DNA of 64,000 bases, from NCBI GenBank assembly GCA_947650365.1, contig OX393552.1, positions 52,335,428 to 52,399,427 of the forward strand, given 5' to 3'. Below are positions 3,100-51,410 of the stretch, one piece after another (position 1 is the first letter of the stretch; each line of letters opens with the position of its first letter). The notes below the pieces were generated by a model. That model was not told the DNA's origin, did not search any database, and was given only the letters and a program-made list of their open reading frames with translations. A program made the translations under genes and the position numbers. The stretch is from Chamaelirium japonicum (taxonomy: Eukaryota > Streptophyta > Magnoliopsida > Liliales > Melanthiaceae).

Positions 3100-3184
<85 letters not shown>

Positions 3185-3351
3185 GTGTGTCTGTGTGAAT
3201 AATAAAATGCGATGTTGCGGTACATGCGGCGTGCGCCTGTAGCTGCATGGTGCACCCGCCTCGATCTGTGAATCACACTCATCCCCAATTGGTAGGTGCG
3301 TGTGATGCATTAAGCAGCTACGGACGCATGCCTCACACACCACAAACTAAC

Positions 3352-3354
<3 letters not shown>
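3100..3354. repeat. (CT)n(TA)n array and short imperfect palindromic spacer
   Basis: CT repeats (3100-3126) and TA repeats (3127-3180) are followed by a 170-bp spacer. The spacer has GTAGCTGCA-type words in both orientations and looks like a decayed relative of the neighbouring foldback elements. The TA array resumes at about 3355. Confidence 0.55.
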
Positions 3355-4405
<1,051 letters not shown>

Positions 4406-6847: not shown

Positions 6848-8995
6848 ATGTACCCTTCGAAGGGAGGCAACGCATATGGGCAACAGGCCTATGCTTCGCA
6901 ACAGGCATATGGGCAAATCGTAAGCCATCTCCCAGTATTTAATTAATTAATTAATTTTTTTGATGTGATCATCTTTTTTTTTTTTTCCCAGTTAATAGAT
7001 GGATGTGGCTTCTGTTTAATAATGATGTCCTGTTTTTTTTTTTAATCTTGGGATGTTATTGGGTTGTAGGCTGGAGCTACTGGTTACGCCGTGAATCCCA
7101 TAGGTCCCGATGGGGCAACTCAGCATGCGTTGGCATCGCGGCAGGCACTGATGGGTGCTGCCCAAGAAGTGGATTTGAGTGCTTATAGATCCCATCCTTC
7201 ACAATTAGCTCAGTACGGTGGGCCTTATGCGTCGGTCTATGGTTCTGCTGATTTAAGCAGTGTCCAACAGGTCGTAATACATGATCGAACCTTGCAATTT
7301 ATTGTTTTTATATCGCATACTAGTATTAGTTTATGCGCTTTCGGTTGGTAAAATCGATTTGACCCTTTTTTCTTTTACAGTTGCTACATGTTTTTCATGA
7401 TTTTGATGTTTCCCATCTCGTACAAACACATCAAGTTAGAAAAGAATCCGTTCCAAGGAAGGTATAAAAAAACAGCACATGAAAATAATTCTCTACAAAA
7501 GAAACCCTAGAACCTTAATACAAACTAACAACATTTGATGTAAAGCGAAGGATAATTAATGACATGGAATCAAACGTTGAAAAAATTCCTACGAATGACC
7601 GAAATATGTCTTCTTTTTTGAGGATCCAATATAGGAAATGATCAAAGTTTTGAGAGTGCCAAATTTTTGGTCGACATCACGGAATGTCAAATGAAATGAC
7701 CAACATTTTACCGTATTCCAACATTCCGTCTTTTTTTTTTTGACCACACCACTGAAAAATTTCATCTATTTTCAGTAAAATATTCTATCTTTTTTGTTGA
7801 AAAATTCCATCCTTTTCCTCTGTTCCTATTTTTCATAACAGATCGAAAGTAACGAAAACAAGCATAATTTTGACGAAAATTCAATAAATTTTCACCTGAA
7901 ACTTCCCTTCAAATTATAAAATTTACATCGACATTTGATCGAAATCCAATAATTTTTTGTTTTGACCGACTGAAGCCGATATCTAAATCAATATTTATAA
8001 CCTCAATTCATTACCATAACCATAAAGCCATGCCCCATCTATGTGGGGTCTTCTCAATTTATCCTTCCTTGCCATTCAATTCTATCTAGGGGTATTTCCA
8101 TGTCTTTCTAACAACTTCCATGATTCCATCAATGTTATTCTAGGTCTTCCCCTTCTACTTGGACCTTCCACACTAATATGAGACCCTTTCCTTATACGGG
8201 CTGCCTCTACTTTACATTGTACATGACCAAACCATCTTAATCTATTATCCATCATCTTGTTCTCAATTTGTGCCACTCCGACACCTTTTCTAATATACTC
8301 ATTCCTCAAACCTCCTAGTTTTTCCTTACATACACCTCACCATCCTCATCTCAACCACGCGGCCCACGTCCATCTTATGGGCTTGAGATCTCTTTAAGGG
8401 CTAACATTCTGAACCATATACTATTGCGGGTCGTATTGCTGTTTTGTTAAATTTACTTTTGAGCATGGATACACCGATACTTCGAAACAGGTGCCGTACC
8501 CGTATCAGATACTTCCCGATACGTTCTGATACGGCTAGGAGCATTGGGTTTTTTTTTTTAAAAAAGATCCGATACTTCGGAGATATGGGGCCGATACTCC
8601 AGGATACGTATGGATGGTAATGTAGTACAAAATCCAAAAATCCGACCCAAATTCGATCGAAACTTCGGATTGGGTCTAAATTCTATACGTGACCATTTGC
8701 TTAATGATATCATTTATATGTTTTGTTTTTGGGATGATGCATGTGACACTAACTTTGTATTTTGTAATGAATGATGAATGTTAGCGTTTTTTGCTAGCGT
8801 TTTGTAATGGACGATGAATGTGACACTTGCGTAATGTTGCTAGTGTTACTTTTTTGTAATGGATGAATGTGACATTTGCTTTGTATTTTTTGGCTGTATT
8901 GGATGTAAATCATGTAATGAATGATGAGCATGATCATATTTAATTTTCAAACTATTCACTATTCATATTCTAGCACAAAATATTATATTTAATTA

Positions 8996-9036
<41 letters not shown>

Positions 9037-10698
9037 TACAAACGTATCATTGCCGTACCGCGTATCGTAGTTTTTCAAAAATCCATGTATCGCCGTGTCC
9101 GTATCCTCGTGTCCGTATCGGTGCTTCCTAGCTCTTGAGTCTTAAAGGCATGCGTCGATCACATAGCACTTTTGAGGCCCCTCTCCATTTTGTCTAATCC
9201 TCTCTAATCTTATTGCATAGATCATTATCTATCTCTCTATTCTTCTGTATGACAGATCCAAGATATCAAAAATAGTCATATTGTTGTACTTCATGATCAT
9301 CAATTGTGAAATGGCTTCATTATCATTATTATTTGTGATAAAATTGCACTCCATATATTCTGTTTTAGCTCGACTTATTTTTAAGGTCTTATCTTTCAAA
9401 GTTTTCCTCCACAATTTCAATTTAGTATTTTACCTCATCTTTTTCTCATCGACCAACACTATATCATCTGCAAATAACATACATTACACTACTTCTTGAA
9501 TATTAGCTGTGAGTTCATCAACGATAAGAGTAATAAGATATGGCCTTAAGACTCACCCTTGGTTAGGGGTGGGACATGGGTGGGTTGAAGGGTCTGCCTA
9601 TGCCCAACTTGACCTACACACATCTTAACTCGTTTTGCCCATGTAACCAGTGGTACCCATGGAAGCCCAACCCGGGCTTGGCCCTTCGGGTTGCTCGGGT
9701 TGCCCAATTAGAAATGCTTGTGAAACATATGTAAATGGGAAATGGCCCTTCGGGTTGCTCGGGTTGCCCAATTAGAAATGCTTGTGAAACATATGTAAAT
9801 GGGAAACAAAATAACAAAATTAAAAGGTCAAACTATTTGATTGAAAATGAAGCATTGCTCTGCACCGCTAGAGAGAGATGAGCGAGGGGGTAAGATAGGA
9901 ACAGAGGGTGTCAGTCGTGTGGGGTCAGGGTTTCTCTTTCTCTATTGTGAATTTGTAATTTATATATGAATTACTGGATTAGTAAAGCACTCGAGCTGGT
10001 GTGAGTGTGAGTCGTGTACTATGTGTGTGTGCCACTAAGCATTGCACTATTGTAGTGCAATGAGATCAGAGTGTGATCCACTCTTCATTGCTCCACTGTA
10101 GTGCAATAAGATCAGATTAGTGGAACCACAGTAGTGAGATACAAGTATGCGACTGTACTCGGGTTCCTTGGGTTGGGTAAGACCGGTGTAACTTATCCAA
10201 ATTGAAATCGGGTTGATATTTTTTTGTCTAAACCTGTTCAAGTTTTTAATAAACTTCGTCCATGCTTGTTGATTATTCGAGTTGGGTTCAGGTTGGGGGG
10301 GTTGGACTCGCCCAAGTCCCACCCCTACCCTTGGTTGAGTCATGCAGTTACTGGAAATTCATTTGTGTTGCCGCAGTTACTGCTGACACTAGTAATTGCT
10401 CCGTCATACATGTCTTCAATCACTTCAATATAACCTCGAGGCACCCTTTTTCTCCTTAAAGTTCACCAAATCACGTCGCGTTGTACTCTATTATAAACCA
10501 TCTCTAAGTCGATAAAAACCATATGTAGATTCTGTATATTCTCTCTAAATGTTTCCATCAGTTGACTCAGCAAGAAAATAGCCTCCATTGTGGACATTCC
10601 TGCTATGATCTGTGGACACGGACACGGGTGTCGAGTATCGACACGGATACGGGAGTCGGACACGGCAAAATCATAAAAGATGGATACGGGGACACGTG

Positions 10699-10755
<57 letters not shown>

Positions 10756-13700
10756 CATCAATAAAATTATGAAGTTAATAACGGTTGAAAATAACTAGAG
10801 TAGAATTATCAAATATTACTAGAGTTCACACACGAACGATTGAAAATAGAACTATAAATGATGTTCATCAAAAAAACAAATCATTTGGCAAAAAAAAAAC
10901 TCAAGCGTCTTCAAGAGGAGGCATGTCTGGATCAACATCTTGATTATCATTATCCGCTATCACAGGCATGCGTTCGACGACTGGATCATTGAGGGAAAGT
11001 TCTTCAAGGTCCATATCTATAGGAAACTCCAAGTTTGATTCTTCAGCTATCATATCCCAGCACTTTGAAGGATCATTTTTGTAACTCTGCTCCCTCCTAG
11101 ATAATAGTCTTAAATTGCTATGAATGAAAACAAGATCTTCAGCACGATTTGATTTTGTTTGATTCCGCTTCACATTCAAAATATATGAGAACGTGCTCCA
11201 ATTTCTCTCACAAGAAGAAGAAGCCGGTTGATTAAGCAACCTACAATGCACAATGTCAATGAGAAGTTAGTATCATGTCAAATTTATAACTTGGATGGAT
11301 TCAATAAAACAATATTTAAACGAAATGGTATACCTATCAGCTAATGCTGCAATCTTTGGAGCACCGGCTCCATAATTTGCCCACCATGTTTGTGGCTCCA
11401 TTAAGTATCTGTCACGATTAGATTGCCAACTTGAAAATTTATTACAAGCCATTGAGAAATCTGCATATTGTTGCCGTACTTCTGCAATGTCTTCTTCTGA
11501 AAATAATCTCTCCAGACATTTATTGCGTTCTTCTGATATTTCTTCATCACGATGTGGAGCAACACGCTTCAAACCTTCACCTCCTTCTATCAACCATCTA
11601 TCGCTGTAAAATTTGGGAACCAATGAATGTGCGAGGCAGTGCAATGAGGTATTGCTTTTATTCCATCTTTTAACCAAGACATCATGTAACTCAGTATAGA
11701 AATCACTGCTATCTGTAAGGAGATTTTTCTTCTCGTGAGCAAAGACAATAGCACGGACTTTTTCAATCATAGTATCCCACTTATCATAAATAAGGTGTAG
11801 ACAAGGTTTGTCAGAATCTGCTTCTCTCAACATATTGACAATTGATGCAATAAATGATAAAAAATATTCAACTTGATCCCACCAACTATCATACAAAATA
11901 ATGTTCTTTAGATAATCAGCTTTTTTTCTGTCATCTGGCCTATAAGATGTTTTCCAATCTTCATCAAGGACCATTTTCTCTAATGATTTCTTTACTTTTT
12001 GCACTCGTTGTATCATAATAATATTTGAAGCAAACCGAGTTTCTGCAATATTAAGAAGCCGAAGATGAGAGTATTTATTGAATATTTTTAGTGCATGCGA
12101 GTGATTTGTAACAAAAGTCTTCAATGTTCTTGCATCAAAAATAATATTTTGAATCCATTCGAACTGCTGAAATCTATTTTGATCAGCCCTCTCGGATGCA
12201 CATATGTCTTTTAAAGCTAAGTTCAACGTATGAACTACACAAGGTGTCCAAAATATGTGTGGATATGTCTCTTCAACTCGCAAACCAGCAGCTTTACAAA
12301 CAGCAGCATTATCAGTGATAATCTGGACTACATTTAAGGGCCCCACTTCAGTAATGACTTCAAGAAATAATTTAGAAATATATGTAGCATCCTTATACTC
12401 CCCAGACGAGTCAATTGCCTTCAAAAACATTGGACCACTAGAAGACGACGCTAAGAAGTTGGTGAGGGGACGACTATTATTATCTGTCCATCCATCACTA
12501 ACAATTGAAACACCAGTACGTGGCCATCCAGCTTTTATTGAAGACAAAATTTGATTTATATTGGCTTTCTCTTGTGCCATCAATATTGTTCTTACTTTAT
12601 CATAACTTGGAACTTCATATCCAGGTAAATTACTATTGCATGCATGCTTGATCATCTGTTGAAAAACTGGATTGATAACTCCTGAAAGTGCAATACCTGC
12701 TGCATAAAAATAACGAGCAATTAAATGATCCAGCTCATTCCGTGCTTCCATATTGTAAAAGTCACCCAATGTTTTGTTTCCTTTACGCTTTTTTGATCCT
12801 TCATCAACAATAGGTAAAGGAATACTAGCATAACCTCCAGCACTTGCAGAAAGTAATTTCTTTTGATTTTCAGCATCATTTTGTAATTTTCTTAATTTTT
12901 GAATGCTTTCAAAGTCAATACCACTGCACTTTCGAATTCCTTGATTGCCGATTTGAAGTAAATGTGCCTTTACCCTTGTATATGACCCTTTATATACCTC
13001 CTTACAAAAGGTGCAATGAAATTTCCAATTACCCCCACCGCCAGTTATCTTTTCAATTTTGTCAACATACTTCCATAAAAGAAACTCCCAATCAGGATCT
13101 TCAGAATTTTGATTATTGCTCCCACTACTACCCTCTTGGATGGAACTCATATTATATAACCAACAGAAGATAAACCACTCGACTGCAAGTATGAAGAGAA
13201 CAATAAATAATTAATAAATATTTGGTATCAAAAGTTTTTTACCTACATATATCACAGCAAAGAAGAAAAAATGTAATAGTCTCTACAGACCAAAAAATTT
13301 TATTAAACAAGTCCGGTTCGGCGCACATCACATTTGGCTTGAGTTTGGATCTCCTCTAGTCGGTCGCCCGGTTGGTGGGCTCGGCGTGCATCACAGCCAC
13401 ATGCAGTCGGCCGACCGGTCGGTGGGCTCGGTGTGCATCACAGCCACTTGCAGTCGACCGCCCGGTCGGTGAGCTCGACGTGCATCACAGCCACATGCAG
13501 TTAGCCGGATTAATTGCCATCGTGCGACTGTGATGCACGTAGGCCAGCCGACTGGAGAAGATCGTCGGTTGTGATGTGCGCGGGCCTACCGATCGAGGCC
13601 GACAATCGATCACCTGGTTGGTGGGCTCGGCGTGCATCACAGTCGGCGTGCACCTGGTTATTTGCCATCGTGCGGCTCTGATTCGTGCAGACCAACCGAT

Positions 13701-16700
13701 CACCGGCTGTGATGCTCGCGGGCCAGCCAATCACCGACTGTGATGCACACGGCTGTGATGCACACGGGCTGTGATGCACACCGACTGTGATGCTTGCGGA
13801 CCACACGGCTGTGATGCACACGGCTGTGATGCTCGGCGACTTAAGGTAATCAGTATACCGGCTGTGATTCACACCGGCTGTGATTCACGCGGACCACACG
13901 GCTGTGATTCACACATTACTCGCGGACCACACGACTGTGATTCACGCGGACCACACCGGCTGTGATTCACGCGGACTACACGGCTGTGATTCACGCGGAC
14001 CACACGGCTGTGTTACTCGCGGACCACACGGCTGTGATTCACGCGGACCACACGGCTGTGATTCACGCGGACCACACGACTGTGTTACTCGCGGACCACA
14101 CGGCTGTGATTCACGCGGACCACACGGCTGTGATTCACGCGGACCACACCGGCTGTGATTCACGCCCGGGGCCCACCGACTTAAGGTAATCAGTATAAAA
14201 AAAAAACCCCCACAGACCTCGATCAATCTCTGCGGAGAAGAGAGAGGAGGGAGAGAAGCTCGGAGCGGAGAAGAGAGAGGAGGCAGAAGGAGCTCGGAGC
14301 GGCGAAGATCCAGCCGTCTCGTCGGAGGAGGAGGAGCTCCGTGGGCTGCAGAGCAGATCTCGTCGGAGGAGGAGCTCCGTGGGCTGCAGAGCAGATCTCG
14401 TCGGAGGAGCTCCGTGGGCTGAGGAGATCCGTGGGCTGCAGAGCAGATCTCGTCGAAGGAGGAGCTCCGTGGGCTGAGAGGTACGCTCAAATTTATAGGG
14501 TTTTTGGTTTCTATCTCTAGATCCCCAAATCCTCTACGTTTCTGTTTTTTTTTCTTCCCCCGATCTCTATCTACTCCGTCGAAATCGCAGACGATTGCTT
14601 CCCATGATTTCCACTGCGTTGAAATCGCGCGTGAACGGATCGATCGCGTTGAAGTCGCGGACGATTGTTTCACTTCTCCGGTGTGTCGACACGGGTAGAC
14701 ACGGGGATCCGTGTCGACACGGGTAGACACGGCTCCGAAGCCCAGTTTTCCTGTGTCCCCCATATCATAGCATTCCTGGCATCAATCCGAATTGGCCATC
14801 CTAAAGTTCTTGTCATCTTTCTTAATCTTTGTTTAATCACTATCTCACATAATTTCATGGTGTGACTCATAAGCTTAATTCCATCACTCTCTCCCATAAT
14901 TTTGTATACCTTTCTAAGTCTTTAAAGTCCTTTGTTTTCTTCCATTCGTTAAAGCATAATCTCTTTTTCTTGATTCCCTTTTGGACCTCATCATTTCACC
15001 ACCATAATATCATATATCTTTATCCCCATACCGATAACCTATCGTTTCTCCATGAACCTCTTTAGCAATTCTCTTAATACAGGTTGCAATTTGATCCCAC
15101 CTCATATTTGGTGTACCGTGTACTTTTTAAGACTCTGCTCCCCTCCTATACTTCTTTTTAAAGGATGTGTTCCCTTTTAAATTCCACCACCTTGTTCTTG
15201 GGCTTATTTTAACGCCTTTATCTATAGGTGATGCATCAAGCATAGTGTTGCTTATCATGCACTTGGTCTGACCTTCAGGAGGGTTGTATTATCTTAATTA
15301 ACTCACTATAGGGCAGCTTGTTGACAACCTCAAGGTTACCTTGTTGAATTTTGGGAATGTGTTGACAGTGTTCCTTGTTTATTATACTAGAATATCTCTA
15401 TGTTTTGTCTTTTGACATTTTTTCCTTTTACTAGAAATTCTCGATATGTTAGTTCTGTATCATATGGGCTAATATTGTACTCTGTAATTTGTTGAATGCA
15501 TTGCTCAACCGTCCTCTTCAAGTAGCATCTCTGTTGTATAGGTCGGGGGTGTGAGCGGTAAAGGAGCAGTTTCGTCCAGCCTCCAGGGTCAAACTGGTTA
15601 TCCTTCAGAGTCATCTAAGTTCTCATCTGGAGGTGCTAGCTTGGGAATGAATAGTGATGAATATCTTTCAGCGACAAATCGGGGATACACCCAAAAAGCG
15701 GATCAGTTTTCTGCACTGAAGAATTCGGATTATGCATCAATGGACAGGAGGCAATTTGGCGATCAGCAGGGTGCTTATATTGGGAGGGAGTTGCAGAGCG
15801 AATCTGCTCGAAGATATACTGATTCAGTACCATTCAGCCATCAACATAAGGTTTATCTAGTCAGTTTGTTATGTTCCGTTATCTTAACATATATGCTTTG
15901 GTCACATAATCTTAACTTTATTTTATTTGATTGTTGCTGCAGTCTGAGATGCTTGATCACATTGACCAGGTACTGAGTTGTTTATTTATTTCCCCTAAGA
16001 ATATGTGCCATTGTAGCCTCGAAAACTAATGACTTGTTGCTTAAACTGTTATAAGGCGGCACTGCTTCGCCAACAGCAAATGATGAAAGCTCATGCCTTG
16101 CAGTCTGGTTCCGATATGAGGTGTGTTTAACTTCGTGTGCTTTGGGTAGGAGCTTTTGTGGGTTCAAATGTTTACAGTTCTACTTGAATGTATTATTATC
16201 ATTGGACACATGGTTGATGGTCTGCCTTACTTTGATTGCATCTTAAACCCGTGCTTATTTTTTTGGTGGGTGATATAAATTGTATGTTAAATCACTACTA
16301 GTCCATGCTAGAGATGGAAGCTCGACACTGTGCTTTATTAAATACTACTACAACTCGTATTGCACTGAGTAGGATATACATTTGTGGCAGACAAGCTGAT
16401 TACCTTGCAGCGAGGGCGGCTGCTATTCATCCTGGACCCCAAGAGCTTAGTTCATATGGTGGAAGAATGGATGCTGATCCTCGCAGCTTATCTCTTCTCG
16501 GCAGTACTGCATATGGTGGGCAACATGCAGCTTCCATTTTAGGGGGAGCTCCGAGGAGGAATGTTGACGATCTTATCTACGCTCAGGGTTCGTCTGGTGC
16601 TGGCTATGGGGTAGGTTTGCCCCCTGGTCGGGATTATGGTGCAGGTAAAGGTCTTCGTGGCCAGTCATTCGAGTCTGATTATCAGGGGAGTGTTCTGTCA

Positions 16701-27900: not shown

Positions 27901-30900
27901 CAAGATAAATCTAGGTATAAGGGGTGCAATCAGCAATAATGAGAATATCAAGTCAGAAGACGGAGACAAATAGAATATTTCTAGGTTGTGATGCTGGTGA
28001 AGATTCGGCAGGTGAAGATTCGGCAATCAGGAAACACAAATGTCAAGATCCACGGTGGTCGTTTGCTGCCGATAATCCATCATCACATTAGAACCTCCAA
28101 ATAGTGCACTCTCCTTGATGAGTAGATCAGTCATTCATGAATAAATTTGGTGCTCACTAGCAGAAACTAGACTCGAATAGAGGCCAACGAGATGCAGATG
28201 CTTCCACGTGGCCAATGCACTGGTGAACTTGAAATGAAGTTGAAAATGAGCAATCACTGACTAGGAGATCTGCACTCCTAGGTAGGATTTTGATTGTCCT
28301 TGGTGGAATATGTAGGGTTTGTTTAGTGACTTAAGTCAATATGACTTCATATTTGATTGCCATGATGGTAGGACTCCATGGAATCATACCAACACTCCTC
28401 ATGCAACAGATATTGAGTTCGGCGCACTGCCACTGTGCGATGACTCTGTGTCAACAACAATCATATTTTTTACCATTGCATATTATTATTAATTTTAATC
28501 CTAACCCTCTATTGATTCTGTCATATGTATTCCACTTATCCCCCCTTTGATACCACAACCTTGTCAAATCTCTTCTAACTCTTGTCTAGTATTTCCAAGA
28601 TCTCCCCTAGCTCCAAAGTTTGCAGGTTCTTCTGCCATTCTTAAACTCGACTAGTCTAAGGATCTTTGTTGAAACACGGTTTTTGTAGGAATCCAATAGA
28701 AAAGAATGGTATAATATGCGATTTTTGTGGCTTTGTTACCACTTGTGGCATTGTGTAACACAAACAAAACTCTCGCATGGACCACGAGCTAATGCAAGAA
28801 TACGCTTGAATGTTACTCCTAAAGTACGAAGGGAATTAATGGAGTACTTGAAGACAACTTTCATGGACAAGTGAAGACAACGTTCATGTAAATGTACTGC
28901 AAGTGTCACTGCAAATTCGGATGTGGGTACATAGTGGGAAGGAATTGGGATTTAGATGTTGTTGATGAGCCCTTTTTCTCCACGCAATGCTTAAGACCCA
29001 TCACCTGCAACTTGTAATTGTGTCGCCACCAAAGAGATTGAAAACTAGCGGGTCATTCTGCCTCTTTAATAAACCACTCTTGACAGTCTGGTATCATTCT
29101 TTTTGTTCTTCATTGGATTGGCATCAGGATTCATAGGAGTTACCAAGGTTTCTTTCTTCGGTTTAACTAGGAGTCCGTACCATCCTTAGTAACATTCTGA
29201 GACCCTTTGATTCTTGACATTTTTACTACTAGGGGTGTTCATGGTTTGGGTTGGTTCGGTTTTTGGATAAATTTGGAACCGAACCAGAGTTGATCGGTTC
29301 TCTAGAAAATGGAACTGAACCAAACCATTCCTTGGTAAAAACCGAGCCAAACCAAACCAAACCGGGAAAGTTCGATTTTGTTTGGTTATGCGGGTCTTTC
29401 AAATCGCTCGATAGCCTTAAAGATCGCCTCCTCGACTATTTCCAAATACTTGATTGACAAAAATAATAAGATTGAATTGGCAGTGAACATCCAACCAAAT
29501 GTTCTTGAATTGGCAATGAGGCGTGAATGGCTGAGCTGCTGAGTTGGTTCAGGTTTTATTTTTAAGCCTTTAACTTTGGCTGTTGCTATTTGCCCCAATA
29601 GAATTACTAGCTACATCCTTAACTTTTCACTTTGAGATGTTTCATAAGTTGGGACTTGGGGTTGCTAGTAATTGTGTTGGTGCAAATAGCAACACCCTTC
29701 AGTTTTCAGTTTCATCACACAGTTGAACATTTGAAAGTCTTGAATGCACCGAATGGTGATGATTGGGGTTACCACCATGTAATGTATAATATTAGTGAGA
29801 GTGTATAGTAGTAACTACTAGGGTATACGCCCAATGGTTCGGGTTAAAAGACTCACAACCCAGAACCGAACCGATCTTAGCTGTTTTTTTTTTTTTCCGG
29901 AACCAAACCGAACCGAACAGTCAAAAATACCCGATCCATACCGAATCAAATAGACTGGTTCGGTTCAGTTTGGCGGGTCAACCTGAACCAATGAACACCC
30001 CTATTTACTACCTCTTGTGCTTCATGTTCTTTTGTACGTATCACCCTCTTTAATCTCAGATTCTCAATAGAACAAAACAATGAGGATATTATGCTTGAAA
30101 GAGCTAACAATAACATGGACATATCCAAGTCGTAAAGAAGGGTCTCATTGTCCCCACTTACCCGGATTAAATCAAAAGCTCAAAAAACGGTTCTCGAAGG
30201 CATGCAATGTACTTGAGTTGGTTTCATATGAATGTACTCGAATCAGATTTTTTTTTGCAATGTACTTGAGCTGGTTCATATGAATGGGATCGCCTTAATC
30301 AAAAACATTCTTGATTAGCTAATTAGGATCTTTTTTCAAATTTTTTAAATCAATTTCAGAAAAAAAAACACAAAAAATCAAAGTACCATGTCTGCACAAT
30401 CGCATATGTAACTAAGTTACTGCGGGCATGGCTGGATGTTGTGCAAGTGCTGCACTTGCATTTGCTTGCACATGTGACGTGCAGTTAAAGTTTCATGGGT
30501 TTTGGTGAAACTCTATTTTCACATCTTCTGCACATAAAGCTGTGCAAATTTCGTTTAGTGTGCATCTTGTTTACACATGCCAGACTCTTTTAACCAAACA
30601 ACTTCAATCTAATTATACATGTTTTTAAACACATGTCAAAAACACATCAACGAAACAAGCCCTAAACACTTGCCATATACAATGAAACAAATGATTTTTT
30701 TTTTGCTAATTTTTTTTTCATAAGTGATTTGGTGAATTTTATGGCAGTTGTCTTTTTCATGAAAAAAGTTCCCACAGAATATGTGGGCGGACGTGGTTTG
30801 GACACCCTCGTACAAACAGCTTATGCGGTCTTAAAAACGGTGGCCATATTAATACCTACTCTAGAATATATCTGTATTGTATAGGTAAAGGAAATATCAT

Positions 30901-39535: not shown

Positions 39536-40640
39536 TAGGGGTGGCAATGGGTCATGTCGGGTCGGGTTCATGTCGTGTCTAGTTTCGGATCGTGTCCAAA
39601 ACCTCTAGATCCGAACCCGACCCGTTTAACTAATCGTGTCTAATAGGGGTGTTCATGGTTCGGGTTGGTTCGGTTTTTTGATAAATTTGGAACCGAACCG
39701 AAATTGATCAGTTCTTTAGAAAATAGAACCGAACCAAACCATTTCTTGGTAAAAACCGAACCAAACCAAACCGGAAAAGTTCGGTTTGGTTCGGTTATGC
39801 GGGTCTTTCAAATCACTCGTCATCACACCGTGAGGCGTGAATGGTTGAGCCGCTGAGTTGGTTCAGATTTCATTTTTAAGCCTTTAACTTTGGATGCTGC
39901 TGTTTGACCATATAGAATTACTAGCAACACCCTTAATTTTTAACTTTGAGATAATTCATAAGTTGGGATTAGGGGGTGCTAGTAATTATGTGGGTGCAAA
40001 TAGCAACATCCTTCACTTTTCAGTTTCATTGCACCGTTGAACACTTGAAAGTTTTGAATGCACCGAATAGTGGCAATTGGGGTCATCACCATGTAATGTA
40101 CAATATTAGTGAGACTGTACACTGTATAGTTGTAACTACTGAGGTTATAGTACCAATGGTTCGGGTTGGGTTGGTTCGGGTTAAAAAACTCACAACCCAG
40201 AACCGAACCGACCATAGCGGTTTTTTTTTTTTGGAACCGAACCAAACCGAACTATCAAAAATACCCGATCCAAACCGAACCAAATAGACCGATTCGGTTT
40301 GGTTTGACGGGTCAACCCGAACCGATGAACACCCATAGTGTCTAGATCTTAAACCCATACCCGACTCGTTTATAAACGGATAGACCGGATAAGACTCGTT
40401 TACCACATGGGTTTGTTCAGTTGACCCGATCCGACCCAATCCGACTCAACCCGAACTAACCCGATAGACCCACTGATACTATATATATTACAGTATCGGA
40501 TTGCGGGTAGACCCGACCCGACCTGACCCGACACGACCCGTTGAATTTTAAACGGATCTTCTCGGGTCTATTGTGTCCCGACCCGTTTATTAAACGGGTC
40601 TATCGTGTCGACCCGTTTGGGGTGCCCTCTGAAAAGGACG
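39536..40640. mobile_element. truncated hAT-like repeat rich in GACCCG, host of family A copy 2
   Basis: It begins TAGGGGTGGCAATGGGTCATG, as other hAT-type MITEs here do. Its right half has CCCGACCCGACC repeats and a TATATATTACAGTATCGGATTG core that recurs inverted at about 44340. No matching right end was found, so it is truncated. Confidence 0.6.
39644..40337. mobile_element. hAT-type MITE family A, copy 2 (694 bp)
   Basis: TAGGGGTGTTCATGG and GATGAACACCCATA are the ends. Flanks GTGTCTAA (39636-39643) and GTGTCTAG (40338-40345) give an 8-bp duplication with one mismatch. The interior aligns with copies 1 and 3 but lacks about 80 bp present in copy 1 (after GGGTCTTTCAAAT). It lies inside the element at 39536. 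Confidence 0.9.
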
Positions 40641-41524
40641 GGCCTCGTTAAAACCATAGGTTGCCTTTATGGTGGGATTGTCTTGGACAGGCTGTGAGTT
40701 GTATGTAGTCGAACCCAAAGACTCATGGGGCGTGCTAGCATTGGCACCCCTCAGATATAAGCGTCATTGAGTATCACCTAATTATAAACCGGTTCGCAGG
40801 CAGACCGGCGACCGGTCTGCCGTCGCGTCGATGATCACCGGTGGTATAATAGTGATAGCCCATGGTTTAATCTAATCCGCCGACGGCACCGCCTCACCGG
40901 AGAGCGTCACATGCTCCTGTCGACCTCCACCTGATGTGTTGCTCCTGAACGTGCATTCAATCAGTTGTGGTTTTTGGAAGGAAAGGAACTTGCACATGCC
41001 TGGACCGGCTTGGGCGGGGAGGGGAACGCTAGTCCCAAAAATAGACCGGGTTTAGGATTTTCAACTACAACCCCATCTAATTCTCTTCCGGGCAATTTAG
41101 ATTTATCCCCCAACACGATACACACATTTTATTAAAAATTAGATTTACCCACAAACTATCTCATTCTGTCAGTCAAACATGTTTGATTATTATTATATCC
41201 TTCTATATTTTTTATTAGATTATTTTGTCCCTCACCAGCAAAAACCTCAATCACGAGGGATTTTTTTTTTAATTCGGTATTAAAAAAAAAATCAATTTTA
41301 GGTCCAAAAAACAAAACGTGTATTACATATAGTCCAACTTTAAGTTCCTATTTACAATAAGTCCATCAATAGGATTATTGTATAAAACCTTATCCATTGT
41401 CCATAGTTTTGTTTGCAAATGATCCGATCTTAACCGTTTTAGATAACGTGTTTTTTTAAAAGTACCATAATTACCTCTCGTATTAAATAATGGTAGATGA
41501 TATATGGCTCTTTTTTTTTTTTTT
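40641..41524. other. intergenic, no gene seen
   Basis: Mixed sequence without recognisable coding or repeat structure. GC content falls towards 41500. Confidence 0.5.
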
Positions 41525-42345
41525 ACAGAAATTATGGCACGGTTGCTACAGTGATTTTATTGTAGCTGCTACTGTGATTTCGCTGTAGTTGCTATAGTGA
41601 TTTCACTGTAGCAATATATGATTTCATTATGGATGCTACATCTATTTTACAGTAGCTGCTACAATGAAATCTCAGTAGTTGCTACAGTAAAATTACTATA
41701 GCAATTCATGATTTCATCATGGATGCTAAAAAATATTTCTATTGTAAAATCACTGTAGCAAAGTACTCAATTTTATGTAAATAATACTCAGTTGAATTGA
41801 ATATTATTTTGTATATTTAAGTAGTATGCACGGGTTGCTACAATGATTTCATTATAGCCACTACATTGAAATTCACTATGCCGGCTAAAAAGGCTTCCCT
41901 ATAGTGAATCACTGTAGCAAAACACTCAATTTTATTTAAATAATACTCAATTTTATTGAGTATTATAGTGACTAAAACTGAGTACTATAGTGATTATTGT
42001 AGCCAAGTGTTTTTAGCAGTCACAAAAAAATCACTATAATAGCTATAATTATTTCACTGTAACAAAGTACTCAAATATATGCTAATAATACTTAATTGAA
42101 ATGAGTACTATTGCTACAAACTTGAGTACTATTGCTACAATGATTTCACTGTAGTAATGTGTTTTTTAGCAGCCACGACGAAATGACTAAGCGCTACAGT
42201 GATTTTACTGTAGCTGCTACAGTAGAATCACTATAGCGCTACAGTGATTTTACTGTAGTCGCTATAGCGGAATCACTATAGCACTACAGTGATTTACTGT
42301 AGCTACTACAATGAAATTATTGTAGCTGCTATAGTGGTCCCACAC
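41525..42345. repeat. field of short palindromes based on GCTACAGTGATTTCACTGTA
   Basis: More than twenty variants of a roughly 22-bp imperfect palindrome (GCTACAGTGA, a short A/T centre, then TCACTGTAGC) occur within about 820 bp, spaced irregularly. Clear examples lie near 41553-41620, 42205-42230 and 42240-42310. Between them are repeats of GAGTACTATTG and AATACTCAATT. No ends, target duplication or reading frame could be recognised. Confidence 0.85.
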
Positions 42346-42679
42346 TAGGTCTCGAAACTGTACGTTTCATAGAGATCGGGTGAAGTTATATAGATAATAG
42401 TAGGTTGGTAAATTCAGTAACTTAACCAAGGCTATTTTAGTTTTGCATTAACCAAAAGAGTTCTTGCAACTAATCTGTTGAAATGTGAACCTGGGCTTAG
42501 AGGAAAAGGTTGTCGAGACCTATCCTAAAATGAAACCCTTAAAAATGACTGTTTGCAGTCCGACCCTTGAACCAATTAATTATAAGAAAGATCTTTATCT
42601 TCTTTCTCAAATTCGAAGATTTTAGTATTTGGGGAGAATCTTCATGTTTCTTCCGAGTGCGTTCCTTCCTTTTCGTTTT

Positions 42680-43115
42680 CACGAATGAGTTTCTTCTTCT
42701 TCCTCCCGAAAGAGTTTTAATTCATTTCTTTCCTTTTGAATGGGTTCCTTCAACCGGAATGGGTTCGTCTCTTTACTCATGCATGGGTTTAATCTCTCCC
42801 TCCCAAATTGATTCTTTCCACACGATCAGTTTCATCTTTTCCTCACGGATGGGGTCATCCCGAATGGATTTTATCTCTTTTCTCACAAATTGGTTTCATC
42901 TCTTCCTCCGAAATTGGTTCGTTCCTCATGAATGGGTTCCGCTTCTTTCTCCGAAATTGATTCATTCCTTGTGAATGGGATTCTCTTCTTCCTCTGAATG
43001 AGTTTCATTTTCTTCCCCAATTGGGTTCTTTATCGTAAATGAGTTTCTTCTTTCTCACAAATGTGTTGTATCTTCTTCCTCGTGAATGGGTTTATTTTCT
43101 TCCTCATGATCCCTT
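42680..43115. repeat. degenerate 25-35-bp tandem repeat
   Basis: Units such as TTCCTCACGAATGGGTTTC and variants recur about a dozen times (for example near 42780, 42840, 42890, 42930, 42970, 43020, 43070). The longest frame across it (42567-42974) is Phe/Leu/Ser-rich and purely a product of the repeat. Confidence 0.7.
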
Positions 43116-43258
43116 GGAATGAGTTTCTTAACAACGTTAAAAACGGATTTGAAGAAAACAACAATTTTCCTCACTAATCTATTTTTAATACAGAGTTTGG
43201 GGATTTTTTTTTCATCTTCTTTCTAAGGATTATGTTTCTTGACAAGAAGGGGCAAAAC

Positions 43259-43707
43259 TAGGGGTGGCAATGGGTCGGGTCGGGTCGGGTTGAGACATAT
43301 GTATAAGGGCAAAACACCCAACCCGAACCCAACCCGTTTAATAAACGGGTCAAAAACTTAAACCCAAACCCGACCTGCCTAATAAACAGGTTGACCCGAC
43401 CCGACCCGTTTAACCCGTTTACTAAACGGGTCGGGTCGTGTCGGGTCGGGTTGGCTCGGGTTGGGTCAACAGAACCCATGTAAACCTGTCGGGTTGGGTA
43501 AAGACCAGTCGGATTGGGCCGGGTTTGATTGGGTTGGGTCGGGTTGGCTCGGGTTGGGTTGACACGACCCATTTGTTAAACGGGTCAAGTTGGGTCAATC
43601 GGGTCACCCGTTTATGACCCGAACCTGTTTAGGCCAAACCCAAACCCGCTAACTTCGGCTTGTGTTCGGGTCGGGTTGGCGGGTCGGGTCAAGAATTGCC
43701 ACCCCTA
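43259..43707. mobile_element. hAT-type MITE, 449 bp, GGGTCGGGTT-rich
   Basis: It begins TAGGGGTGGCAATGG and ends GAATTGCCACCCCTA. The target duplication GGCAAAAC is perfect at 43251-43258 and 43708-43715. The interior is a GGGTCGGGTTGGGTC-like minisatellite and its complement, which explains the artefactual Pro/Thr/Arg frames. Confidence 0.92.
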
Positions 43708-48184: not shown

Positions 48185-48916
48185 TAGGGGTGTTTATCGG
48201 TTCGGGTTGACCCGCCAAACCGAACCGAACTGGTCTATTTGGTTTGGTTTGGATTGGGTATTTTTAAAACCCACTAAGATCGGTTCGGTTATGGGTTGTG
48301 AGTTTTTTAACCCGGACTATTGGTAGTATACCCTCAGTAGTTACTACTGTACAGTCTCACTAATATTGTACATTACATGTTGGTGACCCCAATCATCACC
48401 ATTTGGTGCATTTAAGACTTTCAAGTGTTCTATCGTGTGATAAAACTAAAAAGTGAAGGGTGTTGCAATTTGCACCCACATAATTACTAGCACCCCAAAG
48501 TCCCAACTTACGAAATATCTCAAAGTAAAAAAGTTAAGGGTGTTGCTAGTAATTATGTGGGGGCAAATAGCAACACCCAAAGTTAAAGGCTTAAAAGTAA
48601 AATCTGAACCGACTCAGCGGCTCAGCCATTCACACCTCACTATCAATTCAAGAATATTTGGTTGGATGTTCACTTCCAATTCAATCTTATTATTTTTGTC
48701 AATCAAGTATTTGGAAAGATTCGAGGAGACGATCTTTGAGGCTATTGAGCGATTTGAAAGACTCTTACAACCGAATCGAACTTTTCCGGTTTGGTTTGGT
48801 TTGGTTTTTACCAAGAAATGGTTTGTTTCAGTTTCATTTTCTAGAGAACTGATCAATTTCGGTTCGGTTCCTAATTTATCCAAAAATCGAACCAACCCGA
48901 ACCATAGACACCCCTA
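48185..48916. mobile_element. hAT-type MITE family A, copy 3 (732 bp, inverted)
   Basis: It begins TAGGGGTGTTTATCGG and ends ACCATAGACACCCCTA. The target duplication ACGGTAGA is perfect at 48177-48184 and 48917-48924. The interior is the complement of copies 1 and 2. A word around GCTAGTAATTATGTGGGGGC (about 48545) is partly repeated from the CACATAATTACTAGCACC stretch just before it, giving a local inverted duplication. Confidence 0.93.
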
Positions 48917-50532: not shown

Positions 50533-51410
50533 CAGGGGCGGACCTACATAGGGCCCAGGGGGGGCTCAAGCCCCCCCTCAATTTGGGAAGAAAGTTACAC
50601 TTACCCCCTTGAACTTTAGCACAAAAACCCTTAACCCCCTATAGTTTATTTTGTTTCAAATCACTCCCTAAAGTTTGAAATTTTAGCACAATACCCCTTT
50701 TGTCAATTACTTGATTTCCTCATTTTGTAATTTTTTTTTGATCTAGCTAAACTTCAGGAGGGAGGAAAGCAAAGTTTAATTTACTCAGAAAACAATTATA
50801 GCCAACTATTGGTAGCCAACTTCACATGGAGGTGGCCACCACCAGCCATCACCGCCCCACCAGCCGTCATCCCCTGCCAGTCAATATCTACCGTTTTTCC
50901 ACCAACCACCACCCAACCGCCACATGGGCCACCCGTCGCCGCCAGTATTGGTTACCCACGGCCGACCTCGCCGTTTGCCGGCCACCAACGCCCACCAGGG
51001 CCACCACTGTCCGACCGACACCTACCGCAGTCTGCCACCTCCCGCGCATGTGGCATCCCCATAGAGTTCATCCCATGGCTCTTAGTGAATAAGAATCGAG
51101 TGGGATCGGGGACTATTTATAGGTTTTTGGGGGTATGTATGAAATCTAACCCCCCCCCTAAAAAAAAAGATCTGGTCTATTATTTACAAACCGTGCATCT
51201 TGATCGAGTCGGCCAATTATAGTTTCAAATGACTCCGACGATCGAAATTCTCCTTTACTGAGGCAAAATCCTAATAGGCCTTTTACTGCACGATCGAATG
51301 GTAGGGACGCTGTCACACCGCCTGCCAAAGTCTTTGACTGTGAGGCAGCGATTATAGTTACTTTTTAATAATTATGCCCCCCCTGAGGAAAAACCCTGGG
51401 TCCGCCACTG
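50533..51410. mobile_element. hAT-type MITE, 878 bp, nested in the palindrome-array element
   Basis: It begins CAGGGGCGGACCTACATAGG and ends CCCTGGGTCCGCCACTG. The target duplication GTCACAAG is perfect at 50525-50532 and 51411-51418. A GC-rich Pro/Thr-coding stretch (50809-51070) contrasts with the AT-rich rest and may be captured host sequence. Confidence 0.93.

Follow-up and report, generated by a model that had tools for sequence, protein, structure and literature searches.

The maize Ac/Ds system follows a two-component logic, in which full-length elements are accompanied by shorter ones that carry the same ends. DUF659, which Pfam still names as a domain of unknown function, includes hAT transposases, mostly from Viridiplantae, according to the relevant part of PMC3985635. 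The residue list for Ac and Hermes given in section 3.4 of PMC6027215 is D..D..CxxH..R[W/F]..E..[F/W]S, and the part of that source dealing with transposon ends deduces the pattern (T/C)AGNGNNG from 153 plant hAT ends.

As judged from its sequence, the element at positions 10603-14770 of the window (the whole stretch of DNA that was analysed, 64,000 nucleotides) is an ordinary member of the hAT superfamily, with an 8-bp target duplication, a match to PF05699 and the hAT residue motifs. We found no difference in kind between it and the plant DUF659 hATs, with which it shares DUF659 itself, a C-terminal Dimer_Tnp_hAT domain, the Asp/Asp/Glu residues, CxxH and the 8-bp duplication; the features of its own are the CTATGAT ends and a 5' minisatellite. 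With maize Ac/Ds it has in common the residue pattern and the pairing of full-length with shorter same-end elements, whereas its ends do not follow the pattern published for plants, the residue likeness being drawn by motif and from the descriptions in the sections of PMC6027215 concerned. The catalytic and auxiliary residues of housefly Hermes (PDB 4D1Q) are also alike by motif, as these are described in parts of PMC6027215 and PMC4763223 (the latter on Kat1). Our best explanation, which we consider probable, is that the locus belongs to a multi-copy, recently active DUF659-type hAT family, the window copy being probably disabled, with ends that can probably still be moved. The family provides a concrete DUF659 hAT system, in which full-length, damaged and same-end short copies occur together.

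The full-length element is 4168 bp long and lies exactly where the initial annotation had placed it; the ends, the perfect 8-bp duplication and the two-exon frame of 718 aa described there were all reproduced. Its features and those of its flanks, in window coordinates, are as follows.

10336-10594, minus strand: LINE reverse-transcriptase relic, left of the insertion (a 50-aa piece matches RVT_1 at E 0.0074, below the cut-off)
10595-10602, no strand: left target-site duplication CATTCCTG, 8 bp, perfect, read from the sequence
10603-10700: left end, with the CTATGAT terminal repeat (itself at 10603-10609) and GACACG subterminal repeats
10701-10754: (TA)27 microsatellite, close to the left end
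11240-10901, minus strand: transposase exon 2, with the end of the dimerisation block, the putative catalytic Glu617 (codon at 11207-11209) and the stop
11213-11221, minus strand: (TCT) serine run, lacking one codon that most copies have
11333-11241, minus strand: transposase intron, 93 bp, GT-AG, predicted from sequence
13150-11334, minus strand: transposase exon 1, with a weak BED finger, DUF659 (aa 181-342), D219, D280, C304xxH307 and R372-F373
13183-13190, minus strand: candidate acceptor TTGCAG of a putatively spliced 5'-leader intron, present in 12 of the 12 copies displayed
13358-14165: tandem arrays (the minisatellite of the transposase leader) with units of 47, 15, 16 and 24 bp and the terminal-repeat-like motif CTRNGAWNCRC
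14163-14770: right-end module, with a minus-strand pyrimidine-rich leader, subterminal repeats and ATCATAG at 14764-14770
14771-14778, no strand: right target-site duplication CATTCCTG, 8 bp, perfect, read from the sequence
14779-14978, minus strand: LINE relic, right of the insertion (the stretch searched; the relic extends further)

The terminal repeat is short and imperfect: both ends share CTATGAT and match partially beyond it (9 of the first 11 bases and 14 of the first 30 agree), and GACACG subterminal repeats lie near both ends. A structural scan of the 64-kb window for 8-bp duplications whose adjoining ends agree at 9 or more of 11 bases gave 10 hits, including the element itself. Genome-wide, 72 places carry the left-end pattern and 356 the right-end pattern, and no place carries either reversed control pattern. 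Since other loci also have CTATGAT ends flanked by 8-bp duplications, chance is excluded as their origin. The element end CTATGATC disagrees with (T/C)AGNGNNG, a typical rather than a defining pattern, at 3 of its 5 fixed positions, and has 1 mismatch to the older pattern (T/C)A(A/G)NG given in PMC6027215. Among the papers listed in literature searches, the titles showed no transposon record for CTATGAT as a hAT end and no hAT-element paper for six strings of the CTRNGAAGCAC type; Repbase was outside the scope of both searches.

Sequence comparison indicates that the insertion hit a LINE relic, which itself lies in an intron of a CCAR1/DBC1-like gene. On the plus strand, host exons were placed near 6850, near 7090-7270 and from 15542 onwards, and since the donor GT at 7271 and the acceptor AG at 15540-15541 are in matching phase, the element is predicted to be intronic and antisense to the host gene. 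The gene appears to be CCAR1/DBC1-like because the downstream exons match PF14443 DBC1 (E 4.6e-14 and 1.1e-11); its plant name we take to be RSA1. These phase-fitting borders and exon matches agree with the intronic location proposed initially. When the element and one duplication copy are removed, a continuous FGLMPGMSTMEAIFLL frame of the LINE relic results on the minus strand. A search with the joined flanks and one duplication copy (query of 400 bases; best 40 of 583 candidates scored) gave 43 rows: both halves of the window locus itself, 38 further LINE loci and 3 short side pieces. The 38 loci, at 82-87% identity, align across the uninterrupted site, as judged at the level of the alignment, and represent empty-site relatives, the initial annotation having proposed to look for empty sites; a near-identical empty allele, for instance on an unplaced contig, was not found among the best 40 of the 583 candidates.

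The predicted transposase is read from an unbroken frame on the minus strand, 718 aa plus stop in two exons, and belongs to the DUF659 group, with a Pfam match to PF04937 at E 2.2e-49 (167.5 bits; cut-off 34.7). Dimer_Tnp_hAT (PF05699) was matched at E 5e-7 (29.9 bits; cut-off 21.4), its block being one residue short in the window copy. The match of the N-terminus to zf-BED is sub-threshold (E 0.11, 13 bits; cut-off 20.6), and C46, C49, H63 and C75 of this region are invariant in the 6 sequences compared. The hAT residues were located by motif and by eye as D219, D280, C304xxH307, R372-F373 and E617-R-N-W-S, so that, by motif, none is missing of the five residues from which PMC6027215 judges a plant hAT transposase to be active. 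Among solved structures there was no sequence match to the transposase at E up to 1. Of the domains and residues claimed before, the dimerisation domain, the Asp candidates and CxxH could be upheld, whereas the BED finger stayed below threshold and the dimerisation block proved one residue short. By analogy with other hAT enzymes, a transposase of this kind would bind the subterminal repeats, use its Asp-Asp-Glu site (D219, D280 and E617) to cut at the ends via a flanking hairpin, and paste the element with an 8-bp stagger.

A search of the genome (1.52 Gb) with the element gave at least 172 matches, the best 40 of 1498 candidates having been scored, so that counts are lower bounds; the same ends with 8-bp duplications at other loci answer the earlier call to look for further copies. 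We read the 21 best-scoring copies, that is, the window copy (L001) and L009-L028; fractions among them are not fractions of the family, 19 further stretches, mostly more fragmentary copies, being outside the sample. The target duplication is perfect (8/8) in 15 copies, which correspond to 14 sites as L013 and L014 share one, and 7/8 in 2 (L019 and L026); it was not found for L017, and L025, L027 and L028 (3 of the 21) fall outside this count. L013 lies on chromosome-size contig C10 and L014 on unplaced contig C231, and their common site is due either to a haplotype copy or to segmental duplication. Six of the 21 frames are unbroken (window, L009, L012, L016, L020 and L021), in a sample of best-matching copies from the whole genome; the rarity of intact copies had been asserted for the window.

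Compared with L020, both L021 and L022 show 2 differences in about 2497 left-part bases and 1 in about 284 right-end bases, and their target duplications differ, from which it follows that the family moved recently. The window copy differs from its nearest relative, L009, at 17 of 2494 left-part bases, in keeping with its earlier description as young. Plant genomes accumulate about 0.7-1.3e-8 substitutions per site per year. At this general rate the insertion would be at most a few hundred thousand years old, which is an upper bound. In the 15 pairs among the six unbroken copies, dN/dS was 0.08-0.14 in 11 and undefined for L020-L021, and for the window copy it was 0.22 against L016, 0.25 against L012 and 0.70 against L009, all from small numbers of changes. 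By these ratios, the coding sequence is under purifying selection between subfamilies.

The window copy lacks one serine (S613), corresponding to one TCT unit of the run just before Cys616-Glu617. We searched with a block of 70 residues and scored the best 150 of 1346 candidates, the window and family copies included. In 142 of the 150 scored matches there was no net length change across the block around Glu617, down to 55% identity; the remaining 8, the window among them, were one residue shorter there. Four of the seven other shortened matches (L018, L023, L042 and L043) were judged broken, as they also have stops or frameshifts elsewhere, with L057 and the two other matches outside this judgement. 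Of 16 segments read, 13 keep the block length and 3 are shortened (L042, L043 and L057). Counting the lost serine, ten residues are private to the window copy (P24L, V134M, I230T, P436S, P502S, G541E, S613 loss, R634Q, D662N and G663D, in 719-aa numbering), compared with 2 in L009, 2 in L012, 1 in L021 and none in L016 and L020; as L012/L016 and L020/L021 are close pairs, in which common changes are hidden, the counts for these four are understated. At the nucleotide level, bases 1-2812 of the element contain 12 window-private substitutions, 10 of them in coding sequence, where 9 alter an amino acid, besides the lost codon.

The loss of a serine beside Glu617 together with nine further private changes weakens the claim that the element is autonomous. 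Of the initial wording, 'intact, possibly autonomous', the unbroken frame, both ends and the duplication stand, and the enzyme itself is placed in doubt by the lost serine and by private differences that number ten in all. We therefore consider an active window enzyme unlikely, its catalysis being presumably impaired by the serine loss and the nine private substitutions. An open frame and a checklist of catalytic residues were insufficient grounds for calling this transposon autonomous: the surroundings of the active site proved to be changed once sibling copies were compared, which had been missed when a single locus was read.

It is possible that the window copy is nevertheless fully autonomous and active now, and that its shorter serine run is harmless microsatellite length variation. 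The 718-aa frame is open, splice sites, both ends and the duplication are intact, the five key residues are there by motif, and the serines are encoded by a TCT repeat prone to slippage, where a change of one residue might be tolerated. However, the constancy of block length in 142 of 150 matches, the broken state of four of the seven other shortened copies and the ten private residues, which include prolines 24, 436 and 502, kept in the sister families L059 (49% identity) and L060 (47%), make this reading improbable in our judgement. We regard it as an evenly balanced proposition that the window element, silenced and drifting, can now serve only as a non-autonomous substrate, which other copies would move in trans if at all. 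It would fit the nature of the private substitutions, 9 of the 12 being C-to-T or G-to-A and most changing an amino acid, and the dN/dS of 0.70 against L009. The numbers are small, though, and the excess of transitions is unspecific, since such changes make up 4 of 4 private substitutions in L009 and 11 of 14 in L010, against 3 of 13 in L012 and 3 of 10 in L016. This reading is more compatible with our best explanation than opposed to it.

Domestication of the transposase for a host function might keep the frame uninterrupted and would agree with purifying selection across the family, but we consider it extremely improbable: the ends and the duplication are intact, unbroken copies sit at unrelated sites, 15 of the 21 copies are decayed, and the window branch bears no sign of constraint. 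We favour the explanation of a recently active family with a probably disabled window copy. According to it, the window copy would have drifted after landing in the LINE relic, and its ends would probably still be moved by enzyme from other unbroken copies, which are likelier than the window copy to be the working ones.

The window element has the motif CTRNGAWNCRC at 20 places, every one of them in its right part. Of the 21 copies, 19 have it 5-20 times in their right part, and L025 and L028 have it there once each. It was picked post hoc from the ends of the sister elements L058-L061, and arose with shuffled array units in 40 (24-mer) and 43 (47-mer) of 20000 trials. Neither end of the element itself matches it in full, and it is found only 1-3 times in each of the four sister elements. 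We entertain, as a quite doubtful proposal, that the leader array consists of self-built, terminal-repeat-like sites, which would bind the element's own transposase and so limit its expression or titrate the enzyme, and that recombination swaps the array between subfamilies whose coding half stays the same. If the array were such a regulatory decoy, self-limitation of a hAT element would become directly testable.

The right non-repeat end (element bases 3881-4168) is more diverged than the left non-coding part in 7 of 15 picked pairs (p<0.01, the pairs being non-independent). The other 8 pairs, without a significant right-end excess, are six close pairs, L001-L020 (9.5 vs 11.5%) and L001-L011; in L011 there is an excess of divergence in element bases 3101-3880. 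The right-end module thus appears, from these comparisons, to have been exchanged between subfamilies, by recombination or by templated gap repair. That the right half diverged because it mutates faster was not supported, since the closest pairs have no right-end excess. We also considered a captured host gene in the right end, with a plus-strand leader- or intron-like reading, and rejected it because 14195-14560 matched only places of the family (31 matches from 29 candidates, all scored, one of them a fragment of just 100 bp next to a right end on contig C3).

Two of the sister elements have both ends: L058 with CTGGGATACAC/CTAGGAAGCAC and the duplication CTCCTAAG, and L060 with CTGGGAAGCAC/CTATGAAGCAC and CATGGGGC, the ends scoring 8 and 9 of 11 matches, respectively, and L060 giving one more hit, which was taken as chance. 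For L059 and L061 one end of this type each was found. The four DUF659 sisters have ends of the CTRNG type, similar to those of the window element and likewise at variance with (T/C)AGNGNNG. In many of the block matches, the last block lies within an open frame of about 200-250 aa; several sister DUF659 families may have been recently active.

The element had been suggested as an enzyme source for the many hAT-type MITEs nearby; the TAGGGGTG elements read in the window are the following.

9564-10327, 29230-30003, 43259-43707 and 48185-48916: TAGGGGTG MITEs, with their own ends and 8-bp duplications

These four resemble the element in their 8-bp duplications but differ from it in terminal sequence, TAGGGGTG against CTATGAT, a difference already pointed out in the initial annotation and upheld when the terminal repeats were compared. 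A terminal repeat shared with a source is therefore lacking, and the TAGGGGTG MITEs are ruled out as short versions of the 10603-14770 element by their end sequence. As short elements with CTATGAT ends exist elsewhere, the suggestion of a MITE source is not supported.

Among the right-end matches listed (100 of the 356 places, all on C1-C3) we picked 12 regions by hand, and 10 of these were short elements of 305-1300 bp with ends like those of the 10603-14770 element. Their other end corresponds to the left end of the element, reaching base 95-195, with L036 covering only 38-152. The duplications are 8/8 in eight of the ten and 7/8 in two, and nine that were compared have 83-97% mutual identity. 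The family probably mobilises many short elements, as the ends they share with it suggest, and not the TAGGGGTG MITEs. Of the remaining two regions, L037 is outside the count of short elements, and L029 (C3:53235374-53235724) was dropped from it as a MITE since its flanks mirror each other; it has two facing right ends in a 231-bp palindromic arrangement.

Three hAT-type elements with different end types hit the same LINE, at 8464-9131, 9564-10327 and 10603-14770. The insertion at 8464-9131, the third in this relic, is 668 bp long, with the duplication CTTTTGAG/CTCTTGAG (7/8), and its ends resemble those of the sister element L058 (CTAGGAAGCACCGATACGG, minus strand). The TAGGGGTG MITE at 9564-10327 has the duplication CCCTTGGT, and its removal continues the LINE frame. 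A possible further hAT-like element lies at 50533-51410, with ends CAGGGGCGGAC/CAGTGGCGGAC and the duplication GTCACAAG. At 40590-43413 we noted ends TTAAACGGGTC and a duplication CCCGTTTA that overlaps the complement of the end; this stretch may be an inverted repeat instead of a transposon.
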